Assembly: GCA_024195265.1 (NCBI GenBank)
Contig: JAJLRJ010000003.1
Span: 57,357,489-57,421,488, forward strand
From: Dendrophyllia cribrosa
Lineage: Eukaryota; Cnidaria; Anthozoa; Scleractinia; Dendrophylliidae
Direction: 5' to 3'
DNA length: 64,000 nucleotides
Every line of letters begins with the position of its first letter. Position 1 is the stretch's first letter. Below the pieces are notes generated by a model. That model had not been told where the DNA came from. It saw only the letters and a program-made list of their open reading frames with translations, and did not search any database. A program made the position numbers and the translations under genes. Below, piece after piece: positions 25,030-44,379 of this stretch.

Positions 25030-25289
25030 CCTCTACAGAGGCAACTTAAAATTTCGCAAATAAGTTTCTCTGTATATATATATATATACAGAGCGAAAAA
25101 TTCGCAGTTAATTAAATGCGAAATATTGCCTCTGTATATATATGGAGACCGAAAAATTCGCAGTTAATTAAATGCGAAATATTGCCTCCGTATATATATA
25201 TATAAAGACCGAAAAATTCGCAGTTAATTAAATGCGAAATATTGTCTCCGTATATACATATATATAAAGACCGAAAAATTCGCAGTTAA
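25030..25289. repeat. Satellite array A (left of nested transposon)
   Basis: About four to five ~56-bp monomers with the core AATTCGCAGTTAATTAAATG then CGAAATATTGCCTC, separated by TATATA tracts. The array continues at 34242 on the far side of the nested element. Confidence 0.9.
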
Positions 25290-26020
25290 GTAGCAGTCCC
25301 GCTAAGAGCGGTCCGGTCAATTTCGGGTCGGAAAAACGTTAGCGTTTATATTTTGTGGACGAAAAGCATTTGGTAGGCATATATTAAAACCGGTGTATTT
25401 TGTTAAATTTATTGCTTATCTTTTTTGCTACACGCCGAAACGTCTCCAGGCGTCCGAGGGGAGATTTTAGGCCGATTCAGAAGTTGAAATTTGCGAATTT
25501 TCCGGGCCGCGCTACTTCAACACAGGTAGCTGTTGCTTCATATTAACAAGACCACAACATTCAGGTACATTTGAAGTACTTTTCACCGATATGTCGCAAT
25601 AGTTAAAGAAAAGTTAGATAAACCAGGCAAAATCAAAAATACCCAATCGCGCCGCTGATCAAAAGGAAGCGACATTTAGGCAAAAGCAAGAGTCAAAATC
25701 TCAAAAGTGGCACCTAAACCGGGGCTAAAATACCCTTTATAGCAAAGATCTCACCTCATTGTTACTGAATCAGAAGTCAAACCTGCGGGTATCTTTTTGT
25801 GTTGGACGCGAGCGAACGCTTTTTAGAGCTCTTGTGCGACAAATGTTTACAACAAAAGTTCAAAGGTCACGGCTAGGACCGCAATGGAACCCGAACGTAA
25901 ATTACCTAAAAGTGGAATAAGAATAGTGTTTTAGCAGTCCAGAAGTGCCTTTAGTATTCGATAATCCTCAAATTTCGACAAATTTAATTCTTAGTGCCCT
26001 TTACCTTGGATCCATATCAT
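25290..26020 (+). repeat. Left terminal inverted repeat of the TTAA transposon
   Basis: Aligns in inverted orientation with about 33525-34241. Shared landmarks include GTCCGGTCAATTTCGGGTCG, AAAGTGGCACCTAAACCGG, GTTGGACGCGAGCGAACGC and AAAGGTCACGGCTAGGACCG. Mismatches are scattered, so the two TIRs are similar rather than identical. Confidence 0.85.
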
Positions 26021-26439
26021 TTTTTTTATAGTCAGTTAATTGAAGTACATATCTAAGTTATTTCTCGATATTTACTGGTTCTAAACTTTCGCACGCGACT
26101 AATCAATTTCAGCTTGCAGAATTAAAATCTTCTGAGTACGAATAGTGTCTCAGTTTGAAAATTCATCGATCAAAAATTTAATTCCTCTTCTCGTGTTAAT
26201 ACTTTCACTGGCTTAAAAAATCATCATTCTCGGTTGCGGGCCGACTTGAATCAGAGTGTAACGCTAATTTGCATTGCTGTCACGCGATGACATATTGTAA
26301 ATGAACTGTGGTTGCCTAGAGATTTTTCGTTGAACTTGTCGTTGAACTTTGTCAAAATTTGTCTGCACTATTTTTAGAATTCGGAAAAGCTCATCTAAGC
26401 GACTCAGCAATTTTCTAGCCTACGCAGCGACGTTATGAA

Positions 26440-26900
26440 ACGTGAACTAGGGAAAGGACGGGGGACTTTGGAGTGCCCGAATTTTGTCCGCATGAGCTAC
26501 CACGAAGCCCGTGGGGTACTCCCTCATAAAAGCTTTATAGTCTATATTGGCAAGTGCGGCGCCAAAGGGTATGGTTTTTGAGCCATTTTGGTCTGAAATT
26601 GGGTATCGATTTTGACAATTTTCGGTCTGAAATAGGGTATTTTTGTGCACTGTCACTGGTCTGGAATTGGGTGTGGTTTTTTAGAAGAAGCTTCGTTTTT
26701 ATTATAATTCATGCTTGGAAAGTGCGGTTGTGATTAACATCGGCAATTTGAAGCCTTTCCCTGAGCCCTTCTCAAATGTTTTACGTAAACCGCAGCAGTT
26801 CCAGGGCCCCGGGTCAGTTGCGATCATTTATCTTCTGGTTTGAAATAGGGTATCAAATCTTGGGTTAGGTCATAAATAGGGTATAGAAAATCACATATTT
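26440..26900. repeat. GGTCTGAAATAGGGTAT-type dispersed repeat
   Basis: Several near copies of GGTCTGAAATTGGGTAT and GAAATAGGGTAT between 26590 and 26885, in the 3' non-coding part of the nested transposon. Probably a small secondary insertion. Positions 26020-26440 hold no recognisable feature. Confidence 0.45.
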
Positions 26901-27105
26901 TGGAAGAAGAAGCAACAGCAACAACAACAATTACTACCAACTCCACATTCATCGATTTTATATTTTCACCTTTTGTAAATTTGAAGTTGAAAATAAGTCA
27001 AGTTAAGTTCCTAGTTAGACCATGACACTCGACATTGCCTATTATTTAACTTGTGCATTGGGTGACGGGGTATGAGGTAAGGTGACACAAAAAACCGCGG
27101 GGCCA

Positions 27106-27256
27106 GGGGCCGGATTCACGAAGCCCTCCTAAGTTAAGACATATCCTAAGCATTGTTTCTTAACAATAGCCTATTGTTGGAATGACAATAGACTATTGTT
27201 AAGAAACGGTACTTAGGATATGTCCTAACTTAGGAGGGTTTCGTGAATCCGGCCCC
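27106..27256. mobile_element. Foldback MITE (GGGGCCGGATTCACGAA ends)
   Basis: GGGGCCGGATTCACGAAGCC and its reverse complement ending GTGAATCCGGCCCC frame an almost complete 150-bp hairpin, inserted in the 3' non-coding part of the TTAA transposon. From 27257 to 28126 nothing else is recognised. Confidence 0.8.
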
Positions 27257-28126
27257 AGCTATTCTTTTAGCGGGGCTGCAAAGGTACACTGTTATTGAAA
27301 TGTCTCTACCAGTCACGCGCACTTGCGTTCTATACAATAAAATAAAAGTTCATAATTAAAGACTACTAAAGATGCGGAAATTACTTATTTGTTATAAAGC
27401 ACATAGCTAATAATACTCGTTACGTGCTAAAAGAGCACAAAAAGCAGAACAATTCCTTCGATTTAAACCCAGACGATGCGTGACACTTAGGTAAAGTTTT
27501 TCGGTCCAAGCTAAACTTGTTTAAAAAGGCTCTCTTGCGCTCACTGAACACTTGCCCTCTACTACATCTTATTTCTGGCTTATTCTGATTACTATATAAT
27601 AGCATCCAACAAAGAAATCGCGATTTTGGATAAACATCTGATCTCGTTGCCAGATTCACTCGAAAAATAAAAAATAAAAAAAAAGCAACAACAACCAAAA
27701 CGAAAAAAGAAAGAAACTGAGGTCCGCCTATTGTCTTGTCTATCGTCGAGTGAATATTTATGTTGGATTACTCAAATATATGAAACATATCTATGTATAT
27801 TAATATTGAAATAATTCTTAGAAAAGGTGATTTGTTGTTGTGTTCATTAACGCTTTTGACAAGTGGCGATCAAAACAGACCACACGTTCACGACAATTGA
27901 GCTGGATATACGAGAATGCTTGCTCTTAGGTGCTGGTACTAATATGCAGATCCAGGATGGGTGCAGCTGCATTCTTGTACCATGTCTTTAATTTTGTCCG
28001 TAAGACAAGACTTTTTGTCTTTGGATTTGAAAGAAAGCTCGAAATAATGGCACATGGCCTTAAGTGTCGGCACAGTGAATTGCGAGAGTTTGTCAAGCCT
28101 GACCTGCTCACACAGGTCATATCCAT

Positions 28127-31100
28127 CTACATGATGGGGTGAACCACGCCCATCTGATTGCAGATGTTATCGATTTCCTCGTTTCTGCGTTTCTCATAAA
28201 GAAATTCAAGCTCTCCCGCCAGTAGAAGATCATCACCATCTTCATCATCATTATTGTCACCATCATCATCTCCCCCGATTTTGTCCCTTTGCGCTGTTCC
28301 GCTTGCTTTTTTGCTTAGTGCTGACAGCCTACTAAAATACGATTGAATTTGCCCCTTCGTCAGCCATTCGTCTCTGCTAAACTTCCGCGTTCCGTCAGAA
28401 TTCCTGACCTTCCTTATGTCCACAGCTACTTGAGCAGGATCCGCTTTCCGGCCAGTTTGAGCGCCAGCATTAAACCTGTCCTTCAGAAAGGACTTAACCT
28501 TTTCCGAAAACCTAGTTCTTCCACTTCTTGGTTTCTGGAGCGCCCAGCCTTCACCTTCGAAATTCCAGTCCCCCTTTGGTGCGGCAAGTTCTTCGTCGGC
28601 AGGTTGCTGTTTTTCTTTTGAATCATCGGCAAGAAACAGCGTCGAAAACTTGAAAGCCCATTGACGACGTAAGCGATCATATATGCCTTCCTGAGGGCGG
28701 ATGTTTAAGCCATGCTCTCCAAAATTTGCGTGGTCTTGCAGCTCATCGAAGGTGGCGAACACATAAGAGCAGCCATGTTCTTTGCATTCAAACAGTACCT
28801 GCGTTTTGTCTGACTCATAGCTTGGTGTCTTCATGCGTCTGGGCGTAAAAGCAAAAAAGCCTCGTTGGTTCACTTCCTTTACTGTGATGAGACCTGGACA
28901 CTGAACCTTGAGATCTGACCATGATATCAATTTCCCAGGACCTATGCCATAGGCCTTTGAGACTCGGATACCATCGGTGCCATATGAGAAGTTATGAAAC
29001 GCACTGAAATTGCTCATAGGGTTTACCTTCATGGTTTGTTTACGATCTATTTCGCATACAACTGCAGTGGTTCCTTTAACCTTTCTGGCCTGCAAAGCCT
29101 CGTACATATCAGAGATAGTCAAAATGTCGTGACCCTCATCACAGTAACGACGGATTGCACTCTTTAACGGGCTAATTATGCGGTCACAAACGTCCTTGCC
29201 AAACTGAGGTTCGGAGAAGTCGTACCTGTAGGAATAGAAATATAGAAAACATAAATTTGGCATACTTTTCCGGCAGAAATCATGGTTGTTGGAATTGCCT
29301 TTTTGGTCTTAAAACATTACATGCAGCGCTTTCTTGTGACAAGATAACAGTGACTTGATTGTATCACAAAATCAGCTTCGATTTAGTTATATTACAATAG
29401 AACACCCAAACGAGGACAAGAACACACACCTTTCCAAGTTCCTCAAGTGTCCACAGTATTACAAGTGTTTTAGTTTCAATTACCTCATTACTCCAATGCC
29501 AACTTGCTCACCAAACTGGCTAACCGCTGCTAGCAGATTATTGTTAAAGTAGCAGCCAGCACCGTCAGAGCGTAGGTAGACATTACTGATGTACGGTCGG
29601 TCAGCTTTTACTACCTTCAACAGGTGTGTCAGGATCGCGCAAACCGCGTACCAGTCCTGAGCACAGCTATCGATGAGGTGGACGTACGAGACAATCTCTA
29701 GGTCTTCCTCACCAGTAGGCTTCGATACAATACAGCTTACGTGCCAACTCATCCCACGCTTGCCAAACCATTCGGATTGCTTCTCTCTGAATTTCATTTG
29801 GTTCAACTTCATCGCCCAATCCATTACCACTAAAATGGAGTCACTTGTAAGGGCTTTTAGCACATCAACTTTTGCCTGATCTTGATTTTCTGCCGTTAAG
29901 ATGTGGGCCTTCCACTGAAGCACCATATCCTGTGCCAGGCTGGCGTCATGTAGGAGGTCCTCCATTTGTTCTGTGCTATAAAAGCTGATGTTTGGTGACT
30001 TTATTTCCGACAATACAGAAAGCATGACCTTCTTCAGCGATTCACATTGGTCACATTCCTCAAGGTGCTCGTGGTCGCAGGAAGCTTTGAAATCGTTGCT
30101 CTTGGGATCACTAAGTGCAAAACGCCTGCAGTGGTCGGTACATGGACTGCCGTCTTCCCGACAGTGCGCGCGATAATCCGTTTTCAGGTAGTGCTTCCCC
30201 TCTTTAAGTTGCTTTCGTGTAGCCTCGCACCACTCCTGAGGTGATCCGCATTGTTCCAACTCGTCAACTATCTTGTGAAGAGTATCGAAACCATCCGCCC
30301 CACTTGCCGCCATGTTGTCAAGTCCTTGAAGCGATTTTCGTTGAGATGATTCTCTGACCTTCAAGATTCGAAACATGGTTGATCTTCCAAGTGGTGTAAA
30401 GGCTTCACTGCTGCAATGACTGAGATACTGCTCTATCATAGTGGACCTTCCGACCGTTCGCACAACATTGGGCATCACTACCTGTTCACCGGATTCTAAT
30501 TTCAAAATCCTGGTCCCAAAGGAAACGTCTTGATAAAAATAAGGCTGATCGACAAAAGACAGGAAATGATCGAGCTTCATCAAATCAATGCGGATTCTGT
30601 GATGTGGAGCTTTCTCTATACTCAGTCCAGCACCAACGGTCTTTGCGTGCTCCCTGGCTTTCTTGATTTGTCGGTCACTCAGGTTCTCGAAAGGGGCGTG
30701 AATTTTTTTTAGTTCAGTAGACGAATATCGCAACACGTATATACTTAGAATCTGAGTCTTTAGACACCTCGTTGGTGCATTTCTATATGCAGTTGTTAAT
30801 GCGGTTAGGTCGTTGCCTGGCGACGATCTTTTGAAAGCTTCTAATAGCTCTTGGCTGGCATTTGGCGCAATAACGCTACATACAGCACGACAGGCTTCCT
30901 CAACTTTTTCTTCGCATAATAGCTTTTCATTTCTTGTTGCTTCATCCCATTTTGATGTCAGTCTGAAGGTCAGCGGCTGTAATTCTTTGTTGTCTGTCAG
31001 GGAAGCGATTTGCGTCATAGCATCATTGTACACCTTTATGGGGTCCACTTCCGACTCGTCATCAGATGTGTCAGATTCCAGTTTACGCCACTGTCCTGGT

Positions 31101-32977
31101 GTCCACTGAGGATCTATTGACCTTGTCCTTGCAGGTGGCTTTGGAGTGCCTAGCGACCAAGCTTTCATTGCGGCGCGAGCATCCTCTTTACATTTCCTGG
31201 GGATATTGCAAAAACAAAGGAATGTATCAGGAATGATTTTGCCCGTAACGCATCGTTTTTGCAGCTTTTGTCTTCTTTTAATAAAATAATAAATTTTAAT
31301 CAAAGCACAGGCAACCCAAGCTCACGATCAGAGCGGCATATGTATTAGATTGTTCAACGCTGTGCATATAACAAAATTGCCCTCACCCGGGAAGAGAAGA
31401 GTAAGGTTGTTGACAACGACACCATTGACTGCCTCTTCTCCACTAAGAAAAAATTGTCAACAAAACGCAGCTGCGAAGTTTCAACCACATGTGTTTTAAC
31501 CGATTTTGCATAACAGGAAAAGCCAATTTTCAAGCACTTAATAAGAAATAGAACACAAACCGCGGTGATAAACATATTGAACTTATTCATTTTTTATAAA
31601 ACTTGACGTTTCGTATGCTACTACATACATTTTCAAAAGTGACCGTTACAGTGTTGAAAACTATACTAATATAGTATTGAAAAGGGACTGGGACCGAGAT
31701 TAAGTACAAAACTTAACAGTTGATCTATAAAAAGAAACAGCTAATTAATAAAGCATCAGCTTCTCGCTACTGACGTTTGCATTAAAAGCTGGCTTCAGTT
31801 CTTGTATAGACAATGTTTCTTTGATTTTACAGTGGAAATCAGTTTTGCCCGACGCTAAGATATCAAAATGATCCCACTTGATGTTATTTCCACTGTAAAA
31901 TCAAAGATTCGTATATTTTGGCGATGTCATGAGATATGCATAACGTGATACAATTAAATACAACACATACGTTGCGCTTGTCCAGCAAGCGAATCAGTAG
32001 AGTAGAGATAAGCACAATTAACTGGCACGCACCTCGGATATTCAACTGTAGCTTCATCTGTGTCTTTCTGTTCCAACCAATTCCACTCATTCTTCATTTT
32101 CTCGCTGTGGCTCTTTCTGCAGCTGTTGCAGATGGCTGAAAAGAAACAAAGTCCTTCATTTACGGCGATAGACAGTATACTGATATATATGCTTGTGCAC
32201 CTGTGTAATTTTTTTTAGGAATGGTTGAGGGGGTGGGGGTGGGGGTGGGGGTGGGGGGTGTGGGAGAAGGATACCGAACGCTCATAATGATACCCTAATT
32301 TTTGTAATATTACCCTGCAGTAAAAGAGACCACATCTGTATATTATAGAGTGGATTTACATGTATAATCAGTGAAAAAGAAATCAGAAATTAAACAAATA
32401 AGCCCCATTTATAGACACTAATTCCATTGTTTTCTTCTGTTTACAAATGCGTAATTTTGTTTCACGGTGTTGTGAAATCACTTTATTCAAATTGTAGGTC
32501 TTTTTTGTATTTATGTAGTAATTCGTTTATTGATAGTTTTTAAAAGTTTCTATTAAAATACTCACATGCCCCAACAGGAACAATAACACCAAAAAGTTCT
32601 TTAACTTCCTCTGCAATTTTCACGGAAAATGTTCGGTCACTTTTCACCCCTTCCACCTTCCCTTTGTGCTCTGGATATTGGCACGGTGTTCTTCGCGTTT
32701 GATTTCCCCAGTACTGCCCAAGATAGGCACGATGCCGCGGGCAAACCATCATGTCTTGCATTTGTTCTTCAGTTACGTTAAAATGACCCACACGCATCAA
32801 AATTAGTTCTTTCTCCGTGATGCGTTCTTTAGTCAAATGACATCGTCTGAGATGAGCCGATATATCGGTGTTGCATGCAGAGAGAGGTATTAGTTCACTT
32901 CTGTCCTTAAAATCGCCACATCCGTGATCATCTTTATAAAACAAGAAGCAGTTGGACTTGCAAGACGCCATATTCAT
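28127..32977 (-). CDS. Four-exon DDE-type transposase-like gene, predicted 1,108 aa, uninterrupted
   Basis: Exons on the minus strand: 32977-32566, 32135-32033, 31196-29484 and 29225-28127. All three introns have GT-AG borders and matching phases (1, 2, 2), totalling 3,327 nt with no internal stop. Exon 1 is Cys/His-rich (SELIPLSACNTDISAHLRRC, CPRHRAYLGQYW) and exon 2 adds CNSCRKSH, together a possible zinc-binding N-terminal region. Exon 3 contains VVMDWAMKLNQMKFREKQSE (first candidate catalytic Asp), HLIDSCAQDW and YLRSDGAGCYFNN (second Asp). Exon 4 opens with YDFSEPQFGKDVCDR and a following Glu/Asp-rich helix (candidate third acidic residue), then a Cys/His pair (CKEHGCSYVF...H..H) and an acidic Asp tail. 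A conserved Asp-rich RNase H-like core plus its place between long TIRs identifies it as the element's transposase. The superfamily name is uncertain; catalytic assignments are by eye. Confidence 0.8.
31819..31906. repeat. Short inverted repeat in transposase intron 2
   Basis: TTTGATTTTACAGTGGAAAT and ATTTCCACTGTAAAATCAAA face each other across about 45 bp within the 31197-32032 intron. Confidence 0.7.
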
Positions 32978-33524
32978 GTTTCTCACGCTGCACTTTTTTC
33001 TTCTACTGTGTATGTTTGTAATACGATCAGCTCGTGAGAATTAATAGTAATTAGCATATTTTTAGAGGTTGGCTTCACCGTATTCTGGGCGCAAAAGAAG
33101 CAGAAAAGCCAATTTGACTTTGAAAATAACAACTTTTTCCATATGAAATGACCTCGATCTTTAAACTAAAATGGAAATTGGTAAGTGCAACCTTGTTAGA
33201 TAGTTCAGGCTAATTATAACTGTAATTGGCAAATTTGACGTTGGCGGAATGAATTTTACATTTTAGGCATCTGCTATCAACTTTAAAACTATGCGCAAGA
33301 CCAATTAAAACTGATACCACCGGACAATGAAATGTCCTTTGCAAAAGTACATGTAGCATAATATTTCAACAATGACCGTTAAAAAGTATTAATATACTTC
33401 TTTTTTCAAAAGAATGTATTTTGAATATGTCATTGATCAGAAATCTAGTCGCGTGCGGAAATTCGAACTTACTGGTAAAAGACAAATACGCCACAATCGT
33501 GCATTTATATACAAATTTAAACTT

Positions 33525-34241
33525 TTCAGATTGATATAAATCCAAGGAAAAGGGCATTAAGGGATAAAATTGAGGTATTATGAATACTAAAAGTACTTTT
33601 GGACCGCTAAAACACTATCCTTATTCCACTATTTACGTTTGGGCATCATCCGGTCCTAGCCGTGACCTTTGAACTTTTGTTGCAAACATTGCCGCACATG
33701 AGCTCTAAAAAGCGTTCGCTCGCGTCCAACACAAGAAGATACCCGCAGGTTTAAATTCAGAATCTGTGAAAATAAGGTAAGATCTTTGCTATTAAGGGCA
33801 TTTTAGCTCCGGTTTAGGTGCCACTTTTGAGTTTTTGACTCTCGCATTTAGCTAAATTTTGCTTCCCTTTGACCAGCGACGCGGTTGGGTGTCTTTGATT
33901 TTACCTGGTTTATCTAATTTTTATGCAACTATTACGCCATATCGGTGTAAAGCACTTCAAATGTACCTGAATGCTGTGGTCTTGTTGGCATAGAGCAACA
34001 ATGACCTGTGTTCAAGCAGCGCGGCCCGAAAAAGTCGTAATTTTCGACTTCCGAATCGGCTTAAAATCTCTCCTCGGACTCCTGAAGTCGTTTCGTCGTG
34101 TAGCAAAAAAGAAAAGCAAGAAATTTAACAAAATACACCGGTTTTAATATATGCCCACCAAATGCTTTTCGTCCACAAAATATAAAGGCTAACATTTTTC
34201 CGACCCGAAATTGACCGGACCGCTCTTAGCGGGACTGCCAC
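33525..34241 (-). repeat. Right terminal inverted repeat of the TTAA transposon
   Basis: Inverted counterpart of 25290-26020, ending in GCGGGACTGCCAC beside TTAA at 34242. The transposase start at 32977 lies about 550 bp inside it, so a promoter probably lies in or near this TIR. Confidence 0.85.
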
Positions 34242-34245
34242 TTAA

Positions 34246-34410
34246 TTAAATGCGAAATATTGCCTCTGTATATATATACGGAGCGAAAAATTCGCAGTTA
34301 ATTAAATGCGAAATATTGCCTCTGTATATATATGGAGACCGAAAAATTCGCAGTTAATTAAATGCGAAATATTGCCTCTGTATATATATGCATACCGAAA
34401 ATACAGAGCG
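34246..34410. repeat. Satellite array A, continuation right of the nested transposon
   Basis: About three monomers of the same satellite and orientation as 25030-25289. The monomer interrupted at 25289 resumes here. Confidence 0.9.
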
Positions 34411-35720: not shown

Positions 35721-35824
35721 CACCTGCGATACATGTTGCCTCTGTAACTTAACTAATTTTCTAGTTTTAATGTTTTAATGTCTTTGTTTTTGGCGAAATG
35801 TTGCCTCAAAATGTATTTATTATT

Positions 35825-37215
35825 CGCCGTTAATTAACTGCGAAATATTGCCTCTGAATACATATATACAGAGCGAAAACTTCGCAGTTAATTTACTGCG
35901 AAATATTGCCTCTGAATATATATGGAGAACAAAAAATTCGCCGTTAATTAAATGCGAAATATTGCCTCTGTATATATGTACAGAGCGAAAACTTCGCAGT
36001 TAATTAAATGCGAAATATTGCCTCTGTACATGTATACGGAGCGAAAAATTCGCAGTTAATTAAATGCGAAATATTGCCTCTGTATATATATGGAGACCGA
36101 AAAATTCGCAGTTAATTAAATGCGAAATATTGCCTCTGTATATAAATGGAGACCGAAAAATTCGCAGTTAATTAACTGCGAAATATTGCCTCTGTATATA
36201 TATTCAGAGCGAAAAATTCGCAGTTAATTAAATGCGAAATATTGCCTCTGCATATATATACAGAGCGAAAAATTCGCCGTTAATTAACTGCGAAATATTG
36301 CCTCTGTATATATATGCAGAGCGAAAACTTCGCAGTTAATTAAATGCGAAATATTGCCTCTGTATATATATACAGAGCGAAAAATTCGCAGTTAATTAAA
36401 TGCGAAATATTGCCTCTGTATATATATGGAGACCGAAAAATTCGCAGTTAATTAAATGCGAAATATTGCCTCTGTATATATATGCAGAGCGAAAAATTCG
36501 CAGTTAATTAAATGCGAAATATTGCCTCTGTATATATATTCAGAGCGAAAAATTCGCAGTTAATTAACTGCGAAATATTGCCTCTGTATATATATTCAGA
36601 GCGAAAAATTCGCAGTTAATTAAATGCGAAATATTGCCTCTGCATATATTTACAGAGCGAAAAATTCGCAGTTAATTAACTGCGAAATATTCCCTCTGTA
36701 TATATATGCAGAGCGAAAACTTCGCAGTTAATTAAATGCGAAATATTGCCTCTGTATATATATACAGAGCGATAAATTCGCAGTTAATTAAATGCGAAAT
36801 ATTGCCTCTGTATATATGGAGACCGAAAAATTCGCAGTTAATTAAATGCGAAATATTGCCTCTGTATATATATGCAGAGCGAAAAATTCGCAGTTAATTA
36901 AATGCGAAATATTGCCTCTGTTTTTATATACAGAGCGAAAAATTCGCAGTTAATTAACTGCGAAATATTGCCTCTGTATATATATTCAGAGCGAAAAATT
37001 CGCCGTTAATTAACTACGAAATATTGCCTCTGTATAAATATACAGAGCGAAAAATTCGCAGTTAATTAACTGCGAAATATTGCCTCTGTAGATATATACA
37101 GAGCGAAAAATTCGCAGTTAATTAAATGCGAAATATTGCCTCTGCATATATATATATAAAAAAAATTCGCAGTTAATTAAATGCGAAATATTGCCTCTGT
37201 ATATACTGAATACAG
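35825..37215. repeat. Satellite array B, about 25 monomers of ~56 bp
   Basis: Head-to-tail monomers contain two palindromes: TTCGCAGTTAA with its reverse complement (often exact, sometimes AAATGCGAA), and CTCTGTATATA with its reverse complement. Some monomers have GGAGACCG in place of CAGAGCG. Same orientation as array A. Confidence 0.95.
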
Positions 37216-37316
37216 AGCGAAAACTTCGCAGTTCAAGGTGGCCGGAACCGGCCAGGCCAGACCAGTTTTGTGGTTTTATCAAGTTACACCGCATGATTCG
37301 CTGTTTATGTTTTACA

Positions 37317-37577: not shown

Positions 37578-38954
37578 TTTTAGCTCCTTGTTTTATATAT
37601 AGTTCTGTTTCTGAGAAGTGTTTCTTGGAGCTTGAAGAACCTCCGTTGTTTCATCATGGCATTATTGCATCCCGACATGACTTGAACAGATATGGTGATC
37701 TGTATTGAAAATCTCACGGACGCTAGTGAATTCTTAAGTTTTTCTTAAGCAAGACACGAGTTTCGGTTCTTAGGTGAACCTCATCAGTTGCTCCCATAAG
37801 TAACTGTCTCGCGGAATAATATGAAATTATTCCGTTGTACATGAAATGTTTGCCGCTTTTGTACTCTTGGGAAGGATCGAATGTTCCGTTTTCTCATTGG
37901 CTCGTTTAATTGAACACATAGCATTGGTGTAGTTTCGATCCGACGTTAAGTTGTGTTTCTTTCTGAGGCTTTATTCTTAATTTCATAGCATGTATGATAT
38001 TTTCTGACACAAAGAACAGTTCTTTTAGTGTCGTAGAGAGGAGGTCTCGTGTATGTCTCAATGAATTCAAGATACACTGCATATTTTTTCTACAACAGGC
38101 GTGCAATTCTGGTGTCAAGTTGTGTTTGCTTCATGCGTTCCATAATAGGATATAGTCTTGTGCAACGTAGCGGACTATTCCTAATATATATTTTTCAAAT
38201 ATACGTTATGGTCAAAAATGGTTTTTAAGTATTACACCTTTTTTTAATTAGTAAATGAAAAACAAAGCAATATTTGTCTGGAAAAAAAAATTCGTGCAGA
38301 GGGTTCTTCACCTGCAAAAAAAATCCTGCACAAGCAATGGGCGAAAAAAAAAATTCGTGCAAGCTGAAAATCCCCCCCCCCCCCCCCATCACTTTTCTAA
38401 TGGTCCGTCCCTAATTGAACTTCGTGTCGTACAATTCAGGGATAATCGTGCTCGTAATTTCAAATCGTCCTCGCGCTACGCGCTCGGCCGATTTGAAATT
38501 AATGTAAATCGCTTATCTTAATGACATTTAAACAGTCAAAGCTCTCCGAGGGGACACTCGTGTAAGCGGTCAGCCCTCATTACGGTTGCCATGACGAAAT
38601 CATGTTTGGATTCACCTCTTACGAGAGTCATCCCGTATTAAGCGGCCAGGTACGGACACTTTTTCGGCTTTCGAAGGCTTCCACTCATGACCATTCTTCG
38701 AACCGCCAACGTACTCTTATACTCGACCATGCGCCCAGCTATAACACCTTAATTCGTCGTTTGGCTTTCCTCTATCGTTGCTCTTTCACGCGGCGCATAA
38801 ATATATCGTGGATGGACACGATAGGATCTTTATTTCACCATAACTTTCACATATTTTAGAAACCCCTTCATGTAATCTGGTGAAGAACTGTGTACCTCAA
38901 AATTGCTCGGTGATTGGCAAAGAACAAGTTCATTCCCAGGGTATACACTGTCAC

Positions 38955-40920
38955 AGAGGCAATATTTCGCAGTTAATTAACGGCTAATTTTTCGCCCTTC
39001 CTATATATACAGAGGCAATGTTTCGCAGTTAATTAACGGCGAATTTTTCGCTCTCCATATATATACGGAGGCAATATTTCGCAATTAATTAACGGCGAAT
39101 TTTTCACCCTTCATACATATACAGAGGCAATATTTCGCAGTTAACGGCGAATTTTTCACCATCCATATATATATACGGAGGCAATATTTCGCAATTAATT
39201 AACTGCGAAGTTTTCGCCCTTCAAATATATACAAAGGCAATATTTCGCAATTAATTAACGGCGAATTTTTCGCCATCCATATATGTACGGAGGCAATATT
39301 TCGCAACTAATTAACGGCGAATTTTTCGCCATTTATATATATGCAGAAGCAATATTTCGCAGGTAATTAACAGCGAATTTTTCGCCATCCATATATATAT
39401 ATACAGAGGCAATATTTCGCATTTAATTAACTGCGAAGTTTTCGCCCTTTATATATATATATATATATATACAGAGGCAATGTTTCGCAGTTCATTAACG
39501 GCGAATTTTTCGCCCTTCATTTATATACAGAGGCAATGTTTCGTAGGTAATTAACGGCGAATTTTTCGCTCTCCATATATATACGGAGGCAATATTTCGC
39601 AATTAATTAACTGCGAAGTTTTCGCCCTTCATTTATATACAGAGGCAATATTTCGCAGTTAATTAACGGCGAATTTTTCGCCGTCCATATATATACGGAG
39701 GCAATATTTCGCAATTAATTAACGGCGAATTTTTCGCCGTCCATATACATACGGAGGCAATATTTCGCAATTAATTAACGGCGAATTTTTCACCCTTTAT
39801 ATATACACAGAAGCAATATTTCGCAGTTAATTAACGGCGAATTTTTCGCCATCCACACATATATACGGAGGCAATATTTTGCATTTAATTAACTGCGAAT
39901 TTTTCGCCCTTCATATATATACAGATGCAATATTTCGCAATTAATTAACGGCGAATTTTTTTGCCCTTTATATATATACGGAGGCAAAATTTCGCAGTAA
40001 ATTAACGGCGAATTTTTCACCCCTCATATATGTACAGAAGCAATATTTCGCAGTTAATTAACGGCGAATTTTTCGCTCTGTATATATATACAGAGGCAAT
40101 ATTTCGCATTTAATTAACTGCGAATTTTTCGGTCTCCACATATATACAGAGGCAATATTTCGCAGTTAATTAACGGCGAATTTTTCGTGTCTGCATATAT
40201 GTACAGAGACAATATTTCGCAGTAAATTAACTGCGAAGTTTTCGCTCTCCATATATATACGGAGGCAGTATTTCGCAGTTAATTAACGGCGAATTTTTCG
40301 CCCTTTATACATATACAGAGGCAATGTTTCGCAGTTAATTAACGGCGAATTTTTCGTGTCTGCATATATATACAGAGACAATATTTCGCATTTAATTAAC
40401 TGCGAAGTTTTCGCCCTCCATATATATACAGAGGCAATATTTCGCAGTTAATTAACTGCGAATTTTTCGGTCTCCATATATATACAGAGGCAATACTTCG
40501 CAGTTAATTAACGGCGAATTTTTTTGCCCTTAATATATATACGGAGGCAAAATTTCGCAGTAAATTAACGGCGAATTTTTCACCCCTCATATATGTACAG
40601 AAGCAATATTTCGCAGTTAATTAACGGCGAATTTTTCGCCCTCCATATATATACAGAGACAATATTTCGCAGTAAATTAACTGCGAATTTTTCGGTCTCC
40701 ATATATATACAGAGGCAATACTTCGCAGTTAATCACGGCGAATTTTTCGGTCTTGATACAGAGGCAATATTTCGCATTTAATTAACTGCGAATTTTTCGC
40801 TCTGCATGTATATGCAAAGGCAATATTTCGCAGTAAATTAACTGCGAAATTTTCGCTCTGTTTTTATACAGACGCAATATTTCGCAGTTAATTAACGGCG
40901 AAATTTTCGCTCTGTAATAT
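38955..40920. repeat. Satellite array C, about 35 monomers, inverted relative to A and B
   Basis: Monomers read GGCAATATTTCGCAGTTAAT then TAACGGCGAATTTTTCGCCC and a TATATA tract. This is the reverse complement of arrays A and B, forming the other arm of the foldback structure. CGGCGAA variants dominate here while TGCGAA dominates in B. Confidence 0.95.
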
Positions 40921-41509: not shown

Positions 41510-44379
41510 GGGTGTCCACAAAACGAAGACCGAAGACCGAAGACCGAAAAACGAAGACCCATATAGAACTAATGTAAAACGACATAAAACATTCATAAAA
41601 CAATTCCTCATAGCCAAGAGTCACGTTATCGATAGGGTCTTCGTTTTGCAGAAAAGGCCGGGTCAAACTACAAAACGAAGACCCTCGTTAAAAAGCTTTG
41701 TGAGGCTGCGAAATTCACTTTATTGATAAGGTCTTCGTTTTGTAGAAAAGGCCGGGTCAAACTACAAAACGAAGACCCTCGTTAAAAAGCTTTGTGAGGC
41801 TGTGAAATTCACTTTATTGATAAGGTCTTCGTTTTGTAGAAAAGGCCGGGTCAAACTACAAAACGAAGACCCTCGTTAAAAAGCTGAGAAAACTATTTCT
41901 ACTAATTGTTAGTTCCCCTTTGACACTTTTAAGCCAGATCACGAAACTACAACAGCTCATGTACCTCCTTAATTGAATTTTTCAACTTGTAACTACGAGG
42001 CTTATTAGGAGGCAGCGCTCTTAAATGTACCGTTTGCGGATAACTAAAGCAACCCCAATAGCAAGAAAACAATATAAGAAGATTTAAAGGTCTTTGTCGC
42101 AGTCTATACCCAAATGAACATGATAACGAAATTGGCAACATTGGCAGCGATATTACTCTGCGTCCGTCAAAAATTATAAATTCGTAAACAACGTTTGATA
42201 CACTAGAAAAATACATCCGGGCAACCAAACACACTAAAAACGTGCAAATCTTTAAAATTTATTAGGGTCTTCGTTTTATAGTTTACCCCCACCAAAACTA
42301 TAAAACGAAGACCCCTCCAAATCTGCTGGATAATTCGTAAACAACGTTGGATACACTAGAAAAATACATCCGAGCAACCAAACATACTAAAAATGTGCAA
42401 ATCTTTAAAATTTATTAGGGTCTTCGTTTTATAGTTTACCCCCACCAAAACTATAAAACGGAGACCCCCTCCAAATCTGCTGGAAAATTCGTAAACAACG
42501 TTGGATACACTAGAAAAATACAGCCGGGCAACCAAACACACTAAAAACGTACAAATCTTTAAAATGTATTAGGGTCTTCGTTTTATAGTTTACCCCCACC
42601 AAAACTATAAAACGAAGACCCCCTCCAAATCTGCTGGAAAATTCGTAAACAACGTTGGATACACTAGAAAATTACAGCCGGGCAACCAAACGCACTAAAA
42701 ATTTTGTTTAAAGGCTTATATTGAGACAATGAAACTTGACAGATTATTTATATTAATTTTTACTTTTGAAACAAAACCTAAAAGCTGGTAAGTTATGTTC
42801 ATTCCTAGTTATAACTGCAACATAAAAAAATTGCATGATATTATCTATTTTAAAGCGAATTACACCCCTTATGCTGTCTTCCAAACGCAGTTTTGCTAGC
42901 TACAATTAGAACAAGTTCAGTAGAGCGTTCCTCGAACAAACGAACGTGTGAAAAGCAGTGTTCCTGAATTGATAACTTGTGAAATCTAGCGTGCTTCAAG
43001 CTACCTACTTTTATTATATGCTCGACCAAACGATTTCCTTTATTTTATTATCGGGCAAAGCGTTTGTGATGATAATAAATTTATTACTTACATCGCGCAA
43101 ATTCTCATATGATAATTAATCAAATGCACGTTTTCCAAACGTGAGCAATCCGGCATTAAAAAACAGCAGTTACTGAAAACGATTATATCAATGGATGCCG
43201 ATCGATGTGAAGGCGTTAGGCACAGTAAAATGTTCAATGTGTCTTTTTTCACAAATAAATTTATGGTCGACGCCTGGCAATGCGTTTTGGCGAGAGTTTT
43301 CTTTTTGTAGTTTGACCCGGCCTTTTCTACAAAACGAAGAGAAGACGTTATCGATAAAGTGAATTTATACCTTAAAAATGTCTTGCCGTCAATTTGCCAA
43401 CAATTTCTCGCAAGTAGTTATGGTAATGCATTGCCAAGTGTTTTCGTATATTGAATAGTTCTCACTGTCATTCTCGAGCGAATTTGGAGGGGGTCTTCGT
43501 TTTATAGTTTTGGTGGGGGTAAACTATAAAACGAAGACCCTAATAAATTTTAAAGATTTGCACATTTTTAGTGTGTTTGGTTGCCGGCTGTATTTTTCTA
43601 GTGTATCCAACGTTGTTTACGAATTTTCCAGCAGATTTGGAGGGGGTCTTCCTTTTATAGTTCTGGTGGGGGTAAACTATAAAACGAAGACCCTAATCAA
43701 TTTTAAAGATTTGCACATTTTTTAGTGCATGTGTTTGGTTGCCCGGCTGTATTTTTGTAGTGTATCCATCGTTGTTTTCGAATTTTCCAGCAGATTTGGA
43801 GGGGGTCTTTGTTTTATAGTTTTGGTGGGGGTAAACTATAAAACGAAGACCCTAATAAATTTTAAAGATTTGCACGTTTTTCGTGTGTTTGGTTGCCCGG
43901 GTGTATTTTTCTAGTGTATCAAACGTTGTTTACGAATTTATGATTTTTGACGGACGCAGAGTAATATCGCTGCCAAAGACCTTTAAATCTTCTTCTTATT
44001 GTTTTCTTGCTATTGGGGTTGCTTTAGTTATCCGCAAACGGTACATTTAAGAGCGCTGCCTCCTAAAAAGCCTCGTAGTTACAAGTTGAAAAATTCAATT
44101 AAGGAGGTACATGAGCTGTTGTAGTTTCGTGATCTGGCTTAAAAGTGTCAAAGGGGAACTAACAATTAGTAGAAATAGTTTTCTCAGCTTTTTAACGAGG
44201 GTCTTCGTTTTGTAGTTTAACCCGGCCTTTTCAACAAAACGAAGACCCTATCGATAACGTGACTCTTGGCTATGAGGAATTGTTTTATGAAATGTTTTAT
44301 GTCGTTTTACATTAGTTCTATATATATGGGTCTTCGTTTTTCGGTCTTCGGTCTTCGGTCTTCGTTTTGTAGACACCAC
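41510..44379. mobile_element. 2.87-kb foldback element with tandem-repeat arms, 9-bp TSD TAGTGATAT
   Basis: TAGTGATAT at 41501-41509 and 44380-44388. Ends GGGTGTCCACAAAACGAAGA and TCTTCGTTTTGTAGACACC. Each arm is built of tandem units: GGTCTTCGTTTTGTAGAAAA with GGCCGGGTCAAACTACAAAA (several times on the left), and GGGTCTTCGTTTTATAGTTT with CCCCCACCAAAACTATAAAA about three times on each arm. The centre (about 42720-43300) is unique AT-rich sequence. Repeated short frames in the arms are by-products of the repeat. It sits about 50 bp upstream of the MPEG1 pseudogene start. Confidence 0.8.

Follow-up and report, generated by a model that had tools for sequence, protein, structure and literature searches.

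A probable Sola3-group transposon in a TTAA site of the coral Dendrophyllia cribrosa, and an apparently recently mobile sister family

What kind of DNA transposon targets TTAA, carries very long inverted repeats and encodes a spliced transposase, and can such an element still move? The question is raised by a 64,000-nucleotide stretch of the stony coral Dendrophyllia cribrosa (assembly GCA_024195265.1, contig JAJLRJ010000003.1, positions 57,357,489 to 57,421,488 of the forward strand), referred to here as the window, in which an 8,952-bp element occupies positions 25290-34241 with TTAA on either side. We conclude that it is a class II DNA transposon, that it probably belongs to the Sola3 group, and that its insertion site was a TTAA within a 56-bp satellite. 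A previous reading of the letters alone (the sequence-only reading) had described it as an intact and possibly active member of a poorly described group. The element's limits and gene hold up, its intactness and activity do not, and its novelty survives in part.

Both proposed ends were confirmed, and the ends of relatives agree with them, as TTAA is found at both ends of five further insertions (two close relatives and three copies of a sister family). The borders read ...CGCAG TTAA / GTAGCAGTCCCGC ... GCGGGACTGCCAC / TTAA TTAAATGCG..., and the element termini are 5'-GT...AC-3'. The terminal inverted repeats (TIRs), earlier put at about 720 bp, have the lengths and identity given in Table 1 and match at 624 of 731 columns (blastn, E 0). 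The outer three 50-column bins hold 48, 48 and 47 identities (143 of 150), and bins further in hold 39-47 of 50, save the innermost two (33/50 and 26/31). Two direct pairs of repeats and one weak inverted pair lie within the left TIR, no short repeated sites were found in the right TIR, and blastn detected no further TIR copies in the window. We rejected TIR divergence as a measure of insertion age; the Kimura two-parameter distance of 0.13 between the arms gives no insertion date, because the two arms may already have grown apart by the time a copy moves. Removal of the element and one TTAA yields a junction of 120 bp, which can be aligned from end to end with other satellite monomers of the window (88% identity to 25170-25292, as one example), which bears out the claim that excision restores a monomer.

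The transposase gene lies on the minus strand. Its four exons, separated by GT-AG introns of 430, 836 and 258 bases, join in phase, as had been proposed, to encode 1,108 amino acids (aa) followed by TAG. The joins are supported because homologues align continuously across them and because blocks in relatives break at matching protein positions. Specifically, in five loci of this genome (L002-L006, which share 62-65% identity in exon 3), tblastn blocks cover protein positions 10-137, about 133-172, 172-743 and 723 onward; these loci are 4.7 kb each, and some blocks fall outside some of them. The exon-3 donor is AG/GTAA in the four loci read there (L002-L005).

Homologue searches gave 119, 195 (120 listed) and 14 proteins, 202 distinct ones when pooled, from named sources that include Oculina, Actinostola, Porites, Stylophora, Paramuricea, Argopecten, Mytilus, Patella, Magallana and the nematode Halicephalobus. 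A separate homologue set contains 23 proteins, each 992 aa long, with pairwise differences of 1-50 residues. Aspartates D631, D716 and D757 are invariant in the non-gap alignment rows, as are their counterparts in A2 and A3, and the spacing between the second and third (D2-D3) is 40 aa in 163 of 166 homologues. In the predicted models the first aspartate sits on strand 1 or immediately past it, the second on strand 4 or immediately past it, and the third in the opening turn of the final helix; the third residue was picked for its position and its conservation, with no solved structure as a guide. The core thus modelled appears to be RNase H/integrase-like, D(82-85)D(40)D, which gives the RNase H-like core of the sequence-only reading its acidic residues; the fold match is based on VIA-align and the order of secondary structure elements. 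Its resemblance to the retroviral integrase core is a likeness of fold only (8-15% identity in the rows shown), as integrases use D-D-E and belong to retroelements, whereas here the triad is D-D-D and the element has TIRs. The 50 VIA-align rows shown include no other transposases, an absence that excludes nothing. For the N-terminal Cys/His region, likewise part of the earlier description, 12 of the 202 homologues give a match at E <= 1e-3; many of the others are shorter predictions that lack it. For the proteins tried (with Pfam: eight whole homologues, three window exon frames and the SAP-like frame described below), no Pfam or NCBIfam model scored above its curated cut-off, and the matches were sub-threshold only. 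Homologues P0080 and P0086 carry precomputed Pfam domains, which probably come from fused gene models. Misleading labels also occur on P0077, P0079 and P0027, namely 'Retrovirus-related Pol poly' (Paramuricea) and a 'Gammaproteobacteria bacterium' metagenome-assembled genome.

The protein of the window appears to be truncated. Homologues extend about 64 SAP-like residues beyond its stop, and the corresponding coding piece follows immediately downstream in the window, out of frame with exon 4 (Table 1). An HP motif lies near the C-terminus in 148 of the 202 homologues, with at least 45 residues following it in 135 of these 148. Against PDB sequences, a profile built from 66 homologues matches the SAP domain of Ku70 (1jjr, E 8.6e-4) as well as C2H2 fingers (best E 2.2e-4); Pfam assigned no family to the isolated 75-aa SAP-like frame, and a literature search pairing the SAP domain with transposase terms found nothing. 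The end of exon 4 and the SAP-like piece share one frame in all four relatives read there (L002, L006, L041 and L042), and among the relatives read the break is seen in the window copy alone. Three relatives carry frame changes at other places (L005 within exon 1, both L006 and L042 within exon 4), and broken copies are common. Contrary to the description of an uninterrupted gene, the window copy is slightly broken, its conserved SAP-like C-terminus of about 64 aa being cut off by the frame break. It would no longer make full-length transposase and would move only with help from other copies.

The same 627-Mb genome contains at least 76 matches to exon 3. Two intron-bearing close relatives, A and B, are about 10.0 kb long, have the TTAA duplication and the same exon blocks, resemble the window element closely in their terminal sequence, and end in GTGGCAGTCCCGCTAA(A/G)AGC next to TTAA, with 5'-GT termini and outer flanks that differ. 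Where A and B were compared they are 98.7-99.6% identical, rising to 100% along the outermost 386 bases at one end, and their TIRs match the outermost ~150 bp of those of the window element at 73-74%. A sister family, with no intron within its frame, is represented by six copies (L009-L014, on G000 C17, C22, C6 and C16) that share one identical open frame of 1,004 codons, 942 of them from the first ATG; across roughly 4.76 kb, the identity of L010-L014 to L009 is 99.87-99.94%. Four further copies (L008 and L016-L018) are 99.1-99.8% identical to L009 and have shorter frames. The family measures 6,485-6,487 bp between its TTAAs, its TIRs share 94% identity along 1,024 bases or more from the tip, all four copies examined end in TTAA/GAGGCACTCCGTCTAAGATCC (three at both ends), and the low-end flanks differ between copies. 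Three other loci (L028-L030) are 99.9% identical over 4.17 kb, have an end sequence in common with the sister family and lose their mutual similarity at one point; the frame of L028 is shorter (517 aa), five genome matches share a score of 452 bits, and the three loci are possibly deletion derivatives. Since six copies retain an identical frame in DNA that is ~99.9% alike, the group appears to have moved recently, and activity is more to be expected of the sister family than of the window copy. No relative was encoded in the 100 and 58 pattern stretches searched by tblastn in viral_contigs and genome_contigs, respectively.

To which superfamily does the element belong? Sola elements are described in a passage of PMC10741241 as having a DDD transposase, a 4-bp target-site duplication (TSD), lengths of mostly 2-9 kb, with some larger, and TIRs of 11-1,124 bp. 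The window element has a DDD triad and a 4-bp TSD, which is TTAA here and at the five further insertions; its length and its TIRs lie within the published range, and its relatives reach about 10 kb. In corals, passages of PMC12005156 and PMC12314368 report 17,315 copies of Sola-3 in Siderastrea siderea (0.75% of the genome) and a raised Sola-3 copy number in a chromosome 6 region of Acropora tenuis. We consider Sola3 the probable group because the Sola features are present, the Kolobok and piggyBac signatures are missing, and Sola-3 is reported from corals. Several observations weigh against this interpretation or against movement of the element. The placement was made by published features, not by sequence, and TTAA as the Sola3 target belongs to general background and is not stated in the cited passages. 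Foldseek returned no match at E <= 0.001 in the PDB, where the best E values were 3.4e-2 and, for a terminase complex, 1.5e-3, and no match in the viral library. The best non-self exon-3 match among those listed is 67% identical in amino acids, over part of the exon, and the activity suggested earlier for this copy is therefore unsupported, no close sister being among the listed matches. Finally, AAGCGA follows the right (high-end) TTAA in two of three sister copies; we take this as chance or target preference, because it lies at opposite element ends relative to the gene and because the low-end flanks differ.

The absence of a Pfam match above cut-off in the set given above, the lack of any homologue named as a transposase family (most rows are nameless) and an integrase-like core that combines a short D2-D3 spacing with a SAP-like tail could instead mark an undescribed TTAA, DDD superfamily unrelated to Sola3, Kolobok and piggyBac. 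We regard this as improbable, as the TSD, triad, size and TIRs fit published Sola too, and Sola-3 is already annotated as abundant in corals in the passages cited; the claim of a poorly described group thus stands for the Pfam and NCBIfam models and falls for these features. Also doubtful is the broader proposal of an undescribed animal TTAA superfamily defined by an integrase-like D(82-85)D(40)D core together with zinc clusters and a SAP-like tail, with intron-bearing and intronless lineages and one family still moving here. For Kolobok, another TTAA superfamily, a passage of PMC9587614 gives a C/DxxH motif between the second and third catalytic residues, termini of 5'-RR...YY-3' and hosts that include cnidarians, molluscs and nematodes. 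A divergent Kolobok element would share the TTAA duplication and an overlapping host range, and the 5'-GA of the sister family fits the 5'-RR rule, whereas C/DxxH is missing from the 40-residue stretch that separates D716 from D757 in the window protein, and the window element and its two close relatives start with 5'-GT; we consider this origin very unlikely. In piggyBac, the insertion domain sits between D346 and D447. A piggyBac-related element, already disfavoured by the sequence-only reading, is scarcely credible: TTAA, which a passage of PMC5199201 names for PiggyBac alone, and three aspartates are common to both, but the piggyBac active site (D268/D346/D447, with an insertion domain; PMC7351741, in the passage cited) has about 100 residues between D2 and D3 compared to 40 here, and a search of PDB sequences with the 66-homologue profile, which distant homology would escape, brought up no piggyBac chain at E <= 1. 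Acropora CMITEs were dropped as members of the same family, their TIRs being 13-14 bp (in a passage of PMC2872659).

For the Sola3-group transposon that we favor, the following sequence of events can be proposed. The spliced transposase would bind the outermost ~30 bp of each TIR, and perhaps more internal sites as well, through its Cys/His, C2H2 and SAP-like regions, to which we assign these roles provisionally. This outer block is probably the contact site, because only element bases 4-34 match the tip of the sister family, the remainder of the long window TIRs giving no match to that family below E 0.05. The RNase H core with D631, D716 and D757 would then cut at the TIR/TTAA border, by a chemistry presumed from the triad, the ends would be joined to a staggered TTAA, and fill-in would create the 4-bp duplication.

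Table 1. Positions of element features in the window
Feature	Position	Strand	Remark
Left TTAA target-site duplication	25286..25289	.	TTAA likewise at ends of two relatives and three sister-family copies
Left terminal inverted repeat, 730 bp	25290..26019	+	85% identical to 33532-34241
Outermost block, element bases 4-34, in register with sister-family tips	25293..25323	+	81% over 31 bp, E 6e-4 and 7e-4
Imperfect palindrome, 151 bp, inside element	27106..27256	.	87% self-complementary
SAP-like C-terminal coding piece, out of frame with exon 4	27942..28139	-	
Exon 4, C2H2 finger, C-terminal region	28127..29225	-	Third acidic residue D757 at 29183-29185
Frame break	28130..28139	-	Alignment of P0001 follows frame -2 as far as 28130, frame -1 from 28139
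Exon 3, Cys/His cluster 528-556	29484..31196	-	D631 at 29819-29821, D716 at 29564-29566
Exon 2	32033..32135	-	
Exon 1, N-terminal Cys/His region	32566..32977	-	
Right terminal inverted repeat, 710 bp	33532..34241	-	
Right TTAA target-site duplication	34242..34245	.	

Other features lie within and around the element. The palindrome ends in GGGGCCGGATTCACGAA and is perhaps a small inserted foldback element. On the minus strand, intron 2 contains a short frame at 31745-31930 (KWDHFDILASGKTDFHCKIKETLSIQELKPAFN...) that may resemble the tail of a GIY-YIG retroelement endonuclease. At gathering thresholds, Rfam found nothing in the window, and a scan of the right end for bacterial-type promoters found five sites compared to 3.8 in shuffles, a result that is not meaningful for animal DNA. 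The surrounding satellite, of 56-60 bp, occurs in blocks at 25075-25289, 34242-34401, 35822-37233 and 38953-40910, the last of them reversed, and its monomers contain TTAATTAA, a natural TTAA target. Farther along, at 41520-44368, tandem repeats of 94, 154 and 159 bp have a common GGTCTTCGTTTT motif.

If the Sola3 placement is true, the group would gain exact ends, a defined DDD triad and a SAP-like domain, and the six copies with an identical frame would be natural material for the biochemistry of a non-piggyBac TTAA transposase. The comparison with piggyBac and Kolobok suggests that differently built transposases, including those of the window element's group, converged on TTAA as a target.
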